Source: Acetobacteraceae bacterium (GTDB lineage Bacteria > Pseudomonadota > Alphaproteobacteria > Acetobacterales > Acetobacteraceae). Taken from it: DNA of 64,000 nt. Of the stretch, positions 12,411 to 64,000 are shown piece after piece. Each line of letters starts with the position of its first letter. Within the stretch, counting starts at the first letter, position 1. The notes under the pieces were generated by a model. The model worked only from the letters and a program-made list of their open reading frames with translations, was not told where the DNA came from and searched no databases. The DNA is taken from contig JAMXLO010000122.1 in the NCBI GenBank assembly GCA_024280945.1, positions 157,923-221,922 of the forward strand, in the 5' to 3' direction. A program made the translations under genes and the position numbers.

Positions 12411-12557
12411 GTGGCGCCGTTCAGCGCGGTTTGCAAATTGCCCGTGTGACGGCTGCCACTGACGCCGCCGTCCGACGGTGACAACATAATTTTGTAGCAA
12501 TACGTCAGTTATTAGGACGGCACCAACCTCCGGACGCATTGAGCGGAGAACGCAAAA

Positions 12558-13301
12558 GTGGATGGTCTGGCTCACATTGCGCCGCTCGGCCGCGAGGTCA
12601 ATGCGGACGACAGCATTTGCCCCGGCGACCCAAACGAGGCGATTCGCATCGGGTTGATCGATGCTCTTGCGTTGACCCGAGATTGCCTGACCCTGGCGTT
12701 CGCCTCGGCGTTTCCCGGTGTACTCATGGTGCCATTCGCGACACCCGAGGAATGCATCGGCGCGATCGTCGCAGGGGTTGACGTCATCCTTTACCATGCG
12801 CACGAAGACCTGGCACCGGGCACGTCCGTCCTGCGAGCCGTGAAGCTACTTTGCGCGGCACTCCCGCATATTCCGGTTGCAGTGCTTTCGAGTCATGCAT
12901 GCGCGGTTGAGCCACGTAATCTCCGTGCCGCCTTGGCTGCAGGCGCCCGAGGGTTCATCCCGAGCACGAGCACGAACATTCAGCTTGCCACCGCAGCGAT
13001 TCGGCTGGTCAGGCAGGGCGGCAGCTTTGCACCGTTCGATCTCATGACCAGCGATAAGCGCGCTCGCAAGGAATCCGAGGATAGCGAGGAGTCCAAGCAA
13101 CTGACCCCACGGGAGAACGAGGTGCTGTCACGTCTGCAACGGGGTCAGCCAAACAAGATCATCGCCTACGAACTCACCCTGACGGAAAGCACCGTCAAGG
13201 TGCACATCCGCAACATCATGCGGAAGATGGGAGCCACCAACCGCACCGAAGCCGTCTATAAGTCGCAGCAGCTCTGGCGCGACGCAGGCTTCCAACCCTG
13301 A
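12558..13301 (+). CDS. LuxR/NarL-type regulator with a degenerate receiver domain
   Basis: A 247-residue DNA-binding regulator. Residues about 28-160 have the layout of a response-regulator receiver (IRIGLIDALALTRDCLTLAF, PVAVLSSHACAVEP, AALAAGARGFIPST) but the beta3 strand reads VDVILYHAHEDL: the phosphoacceptor Asp is replaced by His. Residues about 180-240 are a GerE/LuxR helix-turn-helix (LTPRENEVLSRLQRGQPNKI, STVKVHIRNIMRKM). The start is GTG with GGAG nine bases upstream. No histidine kinase is adjacent. Control by something other than phosphorylation is inferred. Confidence 0.82.
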   Translation: MDGLAHIAPLGREVNADDSICPGDPNEAIRIGLIDALALTRDCLTLAFASAFPGVLMVPFATPEECIGAIVAGVDVILYHAHEDLAPGTSVLRAVKLLCAALPHIPVAVLSSHACAVEPRNLRAALAAGARGFIPSTSTNIQLATAAIRLVRQGGSFAPFDLMTSDKRARKESEDSEESKQLTPRENEVLSRLQRGQPNKIIAYELTLTESTVKVHIRNIMRKMGATNRTEAVYKSQQLWRDAGFQP

Positions 13302-62229: not shown

Positions 62230-62280
62230 CTTCGCGCCCGACGCTCCCACGCGCAGCAGGCCGGGCAGGCGATCCGCTCC

Positions 62281-62301
62281 AGCAGGCTGCTGAATAAGTT
62301 C
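62281..62301 (+). repeat. Left terminal inverted repeat of the IS5-like element
   Basis: agcaggctgctgaa, then t, aagt, t, c. It matches the reverse complement of 63754-63774 at 19 of 21 positions. It overlaps the passenger gene's stop codon (62300-62302). Confidence 0.8.
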
Positions 62302-62623
62302 AGATTTTGCTGGCCGTGAGCGCGGCCTCATCGCAGTTGCGAAAGTTGAACTCGATCTCGAGGCTGCCATCATCTCGCAGTTCGGCAGTGCCTGACCCGC
62401 GCACCTCGTCCATCTCATCGAAGCCTTCCCATTCGAAGAATACCGAAGTGCGGGCATACTCGAGATCGAGACCCGCCTGCAGGGCACCGAACGCGATGTC
62501 ACCATGTCCATCGGCAGCGATGATGGCTGGTCCACAGAGGTCGAGGTAGTCGTGATCCCAAAGATCAGCTCCAGTGATCCGCCAGCGGCCGATCAACTTG
62601 CATTCTCCCACCTCCTTCGTCAT
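62300..62623 (-). CDS. Hypothetical protein carried as an IS passenger
   Basis: A 107-residue soluble acidic protein of unknown function: GECKLIGRWRITGADLWDHD, YLDLCGPAIIAADGHGDIAF, GALQAGLDLEYARTSVFFEW, EGFDEMDEVRGSGTAELRDD, GSLEIEFNFRNCDEAALTAS. From memory similar free-standing hypothetical proteins (GRWRI ... WDxDxLDLxGPA ... EMDE) are widespread. Its ATG overlaps the transposase TGA (ATGA) and its stop lies in the left inverted repeat, so it is within the mobile element. It has no transposase or regulator motif. Confidence 0.75.
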   Translation of the reverse strand: MTKEVGECKLIGRWRITGADLWDHDYLDLCGPAIIAADGHGDIAFGALQAGLDLEYARTSVFFEWEGFDEMDEVRGSGTAELRDDGSLEIEFNFRNCDEAALTASKI

Positions 62624-63697
62624 GGCTGAACGCCGCTGGCAAGGCGCTTGGGCAAGCGGACCAGATTGTAGGCCGCGACCACGAGATCGAAGCCTGGCGC
62701 GACGCGCGGTAACCCACGGAACTTCGTTTTGGCGAGACCGCCTACCGTCTTCACCCATCCGAAGATGTCCTCGATCCGCTTGCGACACCGCTGCGACGCC
62801 TCGTAGCCCGGCGGCGGGACGATCTTCACACCACCCCAGCCAAACTCTGAACGCAATGCCACGTGGGGAACGAGATGCCGGTCTTTCAGTGCCTGCGTGA
62901 AACGCCACGCATTGTAAGCCTTGTCGGTACCAAAGCTGGCGCCCGCACCCAGGGCCACGTCATCGATCATGCCAAGGGCTGCTTCCCGCTCTGCCATTCC
63001 GTTTGCCTGCGTCAGACGGGTGGCAACGGCGAGGCCATTGCGGTTCTCCATCAAGATGTGACCCATGTAGCAAAGTTGTGCCGGCTTGCCTTTGCCTTTT
63101 CGGTAAAGGCGCGCCTCGGGATCGGTTGTTGATACATGCGTGGCGTTCGACCGCTTCTCCCCGGAACGCACCCGCCACATTGCCGCCGGGACCACGCGGG
63201 TTCTTGTTCTTGAGCTGAAAACTCTTCATCCCAGCCCAGGCCTCGATCAACGTGCCGTCGACGCTGAAGTGCTGGGTCGAAAGCAGGTGCCTGACGCGGC
63301 GGTTGTTGATCACGGCAGCAAAGAACTTGGCTGCGATCTGCCCGGCAAGCAGCCGGTCGCGGTTCTTCGAGAAGGTTGATGCGTCCCAAGCCGGTTCATC
63401 GGCTGGCAGCCCCGCGAACCAGCGAAACAGCGAGTCAAATTCCAATCGCTCCATTAATTGCCGTTCTGAGCGCACCGAGTAAAACGTCTGCAACAGCATT
63501 GCCCGCAGCAGGTGCTCCGGTGGGATCGATGGCCGACCCCATCCATCAGCGCCAATTGATTGAAAATCGACACTCAAATCCTCCAGCGCTTCGTTCACCA
63601 AGACCTTGATCGTGCGAAGCGGGTGATCCAAACGAAGCCGGGCTTCAATCCCAACATAAGCAAACAATTCTCCGGCTGGCCGATCCTCTCCGCGCAT
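62620..63697 (-). pseudogene. IS5-family DDE transposase, single frameshift
   Basis: About 359 codons in two frames. The N-terminal part starts MRGEDRPAGELFAYV (GAGGAGG seven bases upstream) and has LLRAMLLQTFYSVRSERQLM and the first Asp in FSVDGTLIEAWAGMKSF. The second part carries SNATHVSTTDPEARLYRKGK, the second Asp in GTDKAYNAW and the Glu in RIEDIFGWVKTVGGLAKTKF. All three DDE residues survive. The frames join if the G run at 63159-63162 had one more base (FRGEKRSN). It is a recent indel, a sequencing error or, less likely, a programmed shift. Confidence 0.88.
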
Positions 63698-63753
63698 GCT
63701 GACCTCCTCCCCCATTCCGGGAAAGGGAATCACACGAAACCGGGTCGATCGAA

Positions 63754-63774
63754 GGACTTTTTCAGCAGCCTGCT
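63754..63774 (-). repeat. Right terminal inverted repeat of the IS5-like element
   Basis: Read on the minus strand it begins agcaggctgctgaaaaagtc. It lies 57 bp upstream of the transposase ATG and its outer end overlaps the stop codon of the IS630 transposase (63773-63775). Confidence 0.8.
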
Positions 63775-64000
63775 AGTGTGGTGTCCCATTGATAACTTTA
63801 CAAATGGCGGCGACTCTTCGCAGGATTTCATCGGCTGTGGCGGACCAGATGAATGGACGCGCCGTGCAGTTGTAATTGGTGACAAAGGTGTCGATCCGGG
63901 CGATCAGCTGCCTGGTGCTGGCGAACGAACCACGGCGAATTTCCCGTTGGCTCAGGACCCCGAACCAGCGCTCGACCTGATTGAGCCAGGACGCGTAGGT
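63773..64000 (-). CDS. IS630-family transposase, C-terminal part (runs off the right edge)
   Basis: 75 visible C-terminal residues: YASWLNQVERWFGVLSQREI, RRGSFASTRQLIARIDTFVT, NYNCTARPFIWSATADEILR. The Glu in LNQVERW is the last residue of the IS630 DDE triad, and YNxxxxPFxWxxTAxEIL is typical of this family. The stop TAG (63773-63775) overlaps the end of the neighbouring IS5-like element. Confidence 0.88.
   Translation of the reverse strand, partial: TYASWLNQVERWFGVLSQREIRRGSFASTRQLIARIDTFVTNYNCTARPFIWSATADEILRRVAAICKVINGTPH

Follow-up and report, generated by a model that had tools for sequence, protein, structure and literature searches.

An IS5-family element in an Acetobacteraceae genome and its relatives carry a small non-transposase gene in an apparently exchangeable slot

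Insertion sequences (ISs) of the IS5 family have a short, YTAR-like target duplication, and elements of the IS427/IS870 type have stop codons that are made by the target site. Some ISs carry more than a transposase gene. Transporter ISs (tIS), i.e., IS derivatives with passenger genes, are described in the available part of PMC9330008, and the available part of PMC3281130 describes IS21 and IS66 as having more than one ORF per IS and gives ISPhae1 as an IS5/IS5 element of 1485 bp. That a transposase can end on a stop codon situated in its insertion site has already been published for the IS481 family, in which the last gene of ISLxc2 and ISLxx4 takes its stop codon from the duplicated target (PMC2516522, available part).

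The window, i.e., the whole stretch of 64,000 nucleotides analysed here (Acetobacteraceae bacterium, GenBank assembly GCA_024280945.1, contig JAMXLO010000122.1), holds near one end an IS5-family copy with a small second gene, referred to as the passenger (Table 1). We consider it probable that this is a frameshifted copy of an alphaproteobacterial element whose relatives hold divergent versions of the same gene in the same slot, and that the gene, which encodes a predicted beta-barrel, is an independent cargo rather than a part of the transposition machinery. Aligned to the relative L006, the window transposase is split across two frames, and the copy is therefore decayed and unlikely to be autonomous. 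Both pieces nevertheless keep a domain above its gathering score (PF05598, 81.4 bits; PF01609, 30.3 bits). Because of the frameshift, they score separately only 114.8 and 106.8 bits against the IS5-family model (NCBIfam NF033581, transpos_IS5_4; cut-off 140 bits), against which four intact relatives score 254–269 bits; the terminal inverted repeats and a YTAR-like 4-bp target duplication are further features shared with this family.

A sequence-only reading of the locus had described 21-bp inverted repeats enclosing both genes. The repeats are real, but they are 19 bp long with two mismatches, and the element had been drawn with two extra bases at either end. The 107-codon ORF beside the transposase is present on the minus strand and its ATG does overlap the transposase stop, as had been proposed, whereas the placement of its own stop within the left repeat was too generous, since the TGA (62300–62302) shares just the innermost two bases with the 19-bp repeat. 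Adjoining the element, positions 63773–64000 hold the end of an IS630-like transposase (a weak NCBIfam match) that reaches the end of the contig, which is also the end of the window. Elsewhere in the same genome, a truncated second copy on contig 2 (L002, 1501–2097) consists of a transposase end, an intact passenger (P0005) and a repeat; contig 144 has minor pieces of a third copy near 12451–12617.

Table 1. Positions in the window of the decayed element, its parts and its flanks
Feature	Position	Strand	Remark
IS5-family element (transposase + passenger), decayed copy	62283..63772	-	1490 bp
Terminal inverted repeat, transposase side	63754..63772	-	19 bp
Terminal inverted repeat, passenger side	62283..62301	-	17/19 bases match other end
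Flank CTAG, transposase side	63773..63776	.	half of presumed 4-bp target duplication
Flank CCAG, passenger side	62279..62282	.	other half, one mismatch to CTAG
Transposase, N-terminal part	63155..63697	-	residues 1-180 of relative L006; DUF772
Transposase, C-terminal part	62635..63165	-	different frame; residues 187-366 of L006; DDE domain
ATGA overlap	62620..62623	-	passenger start / transposase stop
Passenger gene P0001	62300..62623	-	107 aa, predicted eight-stranded beta-barrel

That such elements move together with the passenger can be seen in Sinorhizobium meliloti. Two filled sites on pSymA, i.e., L060, whose transposase has a deletion, and L187, which measures 1538 bp, have CTAG on both sides, whereas strains M162 and M270 (L183, L184) show the empty site with a single CTAG; a third candidate empty site (L185) gave no alignment at the junction. 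Strain ml28 has the same element at a different location, on pSymB (L186), with an annotated transposase and passenger and 98.8% identity over the element. All three elements (L060, L187 and L186) carry passengers of type D, the types A–D being working labels assigned by best-matching query and not a classification. The comparison of filled and empty pSymA sites shows that transposase and passenger transpose together and that the 4-bp CTAG is duplicated in the process. Identical 4-bp flanks surround 33 of 45 elements; since the four bases differ in the other 12, a target duplication of TA only was also weighed and was set aside, as the S. meliloti empty site shows four bases in that case.

With relatives that move with the gene, as the empty site shows, and a gene that is conserved, the proposal of the sequence-only reading that this is a transporter IS with a non-transposase gene is supported. 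We class the element group among the IS5-family transporter ISs, as one whose passenger is exchangeable. As in the tIS described in the available part of PMC9330008, a gene unrelated to the transposase lies inside the terminal repeats and, as shown for the relatives, moves with the IS. Relative to that description, the present group differs in that a single protein family occupies a slot at a fixed position, in most cases with an overlap of the transposase stop, in divergent versions and with repeated gain or loss.

The slot was compared across 60 loci whose transposase frame is uninterrupted, of which 51 are non-identical; broken copies (the window copy included) had been dropped beforehand. 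A passenger homologue occupies it in 26 of the 51 elements (as a broken or truncated gene in L039, L106 and L110) and is absent from the other 25. The distance from the transposase stop to the IS end is 307–360 bp in 23 of the 25 passenger-carrying elements whose end was found (the remaining two measure 234 and 491 bp) and 108–148 bp in the passenger-less elements (end found in 23 of 25), and the total lengths are 1.40–1.66 kb (23 measured) and 1.25–1.37 kb (23 measured), respectively. The length of ISPhae1, as given in the available part of PMC3281130, fits the passenger-carrying elements. We also considered that the passenger-less elements might hide a divergent passenger, which is rejected for the 23 whose end was found, their remaining space being too short. 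In 20 of the 26 carriers the passenger starts at offset -1, i.e., with ATGA or GTGA.

The sequence-only reading had held that copies lacking the passenger, with the left repeat directly after the transposase, would speak against it. Elements without the gene do exist, with their ends at the short distances given above; however, they are relatives (transposase identity 51–69% to L006) and not copies of the window element. Its second refuting condition, the passenger at this locus in relatives without the IS, did not turn up in what could be compared. Because such passenger-less relatives exist, the gene is optional. This differs from IS21 and IS66, for which the available part of PMC3281130 presents a multi-ORF structure as typical of the family, whereas about half of the relatives examined here do without the gene. 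Four passenger-less elements (L065, L078, L087, L103) have a short ORF that overlaps the transposase stop and ends on the target's stop; these are perhaps remnants or chance. On the Methylorubrum plasmid pMPPM02 (L056, 2798–2971), an rmtH gene predicted by PLSDB overlaps the C-terminal part of the IS transposase and may be a database artefact.

Presence of the passenger changes repeatedly along the transposase phylogeny. On an IQ-TREE transposase tree it needs six changes, at least five of them being forced by well-supported branches, and supported sister groups that differ in passenger presence are L017/L078, L021/L134, and L107 versus L028, L109 and L110. With the window copy added, a quick tree also requires six changes, only four of them forced; the place of the window transposase in this tree is unsure because it sits on a long branch. 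Close transposases are followed by passengers of different type, e.g., L011 and L122 share 86.7% identity in the transposase and 38.0% in the passenger, L016 and L031 81.3% and 31.1%, and L009 and L123 85.0% and 53.7%, whereas a same-type control, L058/L122, gives 80.6% and 82.5%. Over all pairs the rank correlation between transposase and passenger identity is 0.36, and in a sliding comparison the DNA identity drops at the transposase stop. Judged from these alignments, the slot behaves like an exchangeable cassette, and recombination in the stretch between the end of the transposase gene and the terminal repeat may have swapped its versions. The passenger is under purifying selection, with dN/dS values of 0.08–0.38 in 15 chosen pairs, and the transposase 0.07–0.26 in the 12 of these that have one.

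In 19 of the 25 passenger-carrying elements with an end found, the target site creates the stop codon of the passenger. The frame crosses the terminal repeat and ends TG/NTAR in 17 of them, i.e., the IS gives TG and the target gives N followed by TAA or TAG; in the other two (L006, L077) the target starts with A, making TG/A the stop. The right flank is NTAR in all 48 cases examined. In the remaining six elements, the stop lies 16 bp before the IS end (L031, L058 and L122) or at -73 (L106), +32 (L039) or -168 (L021, in which about 168 bp separate passenger stop and IS end). L002, L005 and the closely related window copy stop slightly earlier, at a TGA of their own. A C-terminus ending in AC is found in 89 of 119 among the P0001 matches listed and in 104 of 120 among the L009-type matches listed, and such endings in most database relatives are what a target-made stop predicts. 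ISLxc2 and ISLxx4 likewise obtain a stop from the duplicated target; however, according to the available part of PMC2516522 it ends the transposase, whereas here it ends the passenger of an IS5-family element. The stop-in-target trick is therefore known, and its use by a passenger was not found in the literature searched. The passenger itself was not found described in the titles and abstracts covered, most subscription journals and ISfinder lying outside that scope. We suggest that ribosomes terminating at the transposase stop re-initiate at the overlapping ATG to translate the passenger and that the TAR of the target would terminate its translation, so that the gene would need no 3' sequence of its own.

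The passenger family is large. In a search space of 5.8 billion proteins and at E ≤ 0.001, P0001 has 448 homologues (database clusters; best 120 of 448 listed), a divergent relative of the L009 type 881 (best 120 of 881 listed) and a more distant Magnetococcus relative 43. In whole genomes, profile A1 matches 20 of 385 genomes of a class sample and 11 of 299 of a phylum sample, and profile A4 matches 16 of 372, the own genome being included each time. The sequence-only reading had suggested comparing how often the passenger stands beside this transposase or alone, and in the class survey with profile A1 a transposase of the group, whole or partial, lies directly upstream at 19 of 28 passenger places (two genes counted as two pieces each, both own copies included) and is lacking at nine (L023, L024, L025, L030, L034, L036, L037, L040, L042), several of which are fragments. 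Since 19 of the 28 have the transposase upstream, the passenger outside an IS is the minority situation, a point against an independent cargo. The 448 homologues, with relatives showing the same gene order and overlap, indicate that the small gene is more than a local oddity or chance.

Database profiles gave little. P0001 has no match in Pfam or NCBIfam at E ≤ 1. At E ≤ 0.001 there was none in Pfam for passengers searched as one protein, 85 rows and six proteins (the 85 rows gave single weak matches down to E 0.018), and none in NCBIfam (one passenger), PHROGs (two) or PADLOC (five). Two passenger queries gave zero matches among annotated phage records.

Viral contigs do hold passengers. Scans of such contigs found passengers of type D, while those with P0001 and P0242 gave no match and one with P0121 a single weak partial match (L153). 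Intact or partial ISs occur in two viral contigs (L149/L158, L160), and six non-identical phage contigs have an intact passenger with only a decayed remnant of the transposase end. One of the six, L148, has passenger and remnant beside portal and major head genes and represents a separate phage lineage. The other five (L151, L154, L155, L157, L159; L156 is a near-copy of L155) form a tailed-phage lineage with DNA about 82–93% identical across longer shared stretches, and baseplate and tail genes were confirmed in its member L154 (= L152). Most of the transposase remnants were identified by visual inspection of their position and residues; tblastn picked up one of the six (L159, E 3.6e-4). In the five-contig lineage, three of the five remnants are interrupted by in-frame stops, and any repeat that is left has at least 3 mismatches in 12; the passenger nevertheless stays an open frame under purifying selection, with dN/dS of 0.09–0.23 in all ten pairs (binomial p from 3.5e-5 down to 5.6e-10, the ten pairs not being independent). 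The most economical reading of these uncultivated contigs is that the passenger would work without the transposase.

Other carriers are also known. In Magnetococcus marinus MC-1 (a name that we infer), three passenger relatives lie downstream of an IS481/IS3-like transposase ORF, of which two were scanned and both fell below curated cut-offs. Two of these three relatives (L118–L120) lie within a 1450-bp repeat that is 99.9% identical, contains the end of a reverse-transcriptase-like ORF and stops a few bases past the passenger stop. Plasmids of Rhodococcus and cyanobacteria have passenger relatives without an IS5-type transposase. The relative on a Rhodococcus ruber plasmid (L057), which has no IS transposase, adjoins a RES-domain gene and overlaps a 390-codon gene without an NCBIfam match.

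Two structural models of passengers (mean pLDDT 84 and 91) have eight strands, and the predicted fold is a beta-barrel. A Foldseek search with a passenger model gave a best E-value of 3.3e-3, with avidins tied, lipid-binding barrels near and designed barrels higher. The first strand has a G-x-W motif (G12 in 96% and W14 in 99% of 74 rows); G-x-W in the first strand is a lipocalin signature. Small eight-stranded barrels are also found in avidins and, as the ligand-binding part, in the CBASS effector Cap15, but the passenger has no detectable sequence relation to solved structures, profiles A1 and A5 giving nothing better than E 0.35. Cap15 consists of an N-terminal two-helix membrane part and a barrel, whereas the predicted passenger barrel occupies all 107 residues and the N-terminal membrane part is absent; none of five passengers was matched in PADLOC, and a shared function is not implied. 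A BFVD fold search stayed empty at E ≤ 0.001; one weak row, at rank 9 with E 0.58 and given no weight here, is a viral protein whose name refers to the S-2TM-beta effector domain. Barrel folds say little about function; the predicted barrel may bind a small ligand or a protein. The modifier, toxin-neutraliser or regulator that the sequence-only reading offered as examples are conceivable roles that gained neither support nor contradiction here.

The passenger is likely a useful cargo, because its versions are very different or absent among relatives and because two phage lineages keep the gene without the transposase. The cargo could benefit the cell or the carrying mobile element, most likely by disturbing a stress or defence signal, and this would account for the retention of the gene by phages as well. 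A narrower version of the cargo reading, in which the protein performs an ordinary cell service, i.e., binds a metabolite, cofactor or stress product, unrelated to defence, and is a moron in the phages, is a serious possibility that falls somewhat short of probable. The tie with avidins and the nearness of lipid-binding barrels in the fold search would suit it, as would the plasmid relatives in Rhodococcus and cyanobacteria; however, the four stand-alone plasmid neighbourhoods looked at share no metabolic gene, nor any other gene that was noticed.

The main rival is that the passenger is a transposition accessory, e.g., an inhibitor which, by binding to the transposase or to the IS ends, would hold the copy number low, the coupling matching its dose to that of the transposase. 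The start overlap in 20 of 26 elements and the fixed position agree with this, and so do the copy numbers. Passenger-less relatives are found in several copies per genome, with a mean of 2.2 (13 genomes) versus 1.0 for gene-carrying elements (13 genomes; p 0.017), as a transposition inhibitor would give, in a comparison that omits mixed genomes and genomes with broken copies only and is uncorrected for kinship and collapsed repeats; with two mixed genomes kept, the mean is 2.3 in 15 genomes (p 0.006). One genome, G975, has eleven matching places from two passenger-less element types, against single copies in the 13 counted passenger-carrying genomes. A regulatory role is conceivable because gene-less elements are more numerous per genome. 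However, 25 of 51 related elements manage without the gene, as G975 does in its eleven places; transposases 81–87% identical accompany A/D pairs of passengers merely 31–38% identical; phage contigs keep the gene without an intact transposase; and the Magnetococcus relatives stand behind a transposase ORF of another, IS481/IS3-like kind. We therefore regard the accessory role as improbable.

A more specific form of the cargo reading would make the slot a 3' plug-in site with a target-lent stop and its cargo a soluble barrel of the Cap15 kind that sequesters immune nucleotide signals, i.e., an IS-borne counter-defence adopted by phages; we consider this highly improbable. That the frame is functionless, open by chance or hitch-hiking, can be dismissed for practical purposes: the window copy does sit in a dead element, but the dN/dS values of the ISs and of the phages, together with the 448 and 881 homologues of two queries, contradict it.

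If the reading as an independent cargo is true, a minimal IS carries exchangeable cargo in a fixed slot for about 200 bp extra, with the host target supplying the stop codon. The passengers form a widespread family in insertion sequences, phage contigs and plasmids, whose scanned members match nothing in Pfam, NCBIfam, PHROGs or PADLOC at E ≤ 0.001. For IS annotation this is a warning, as the gene behind such a transposase can belong to the element and yet be annotated as a hypothetical protein.
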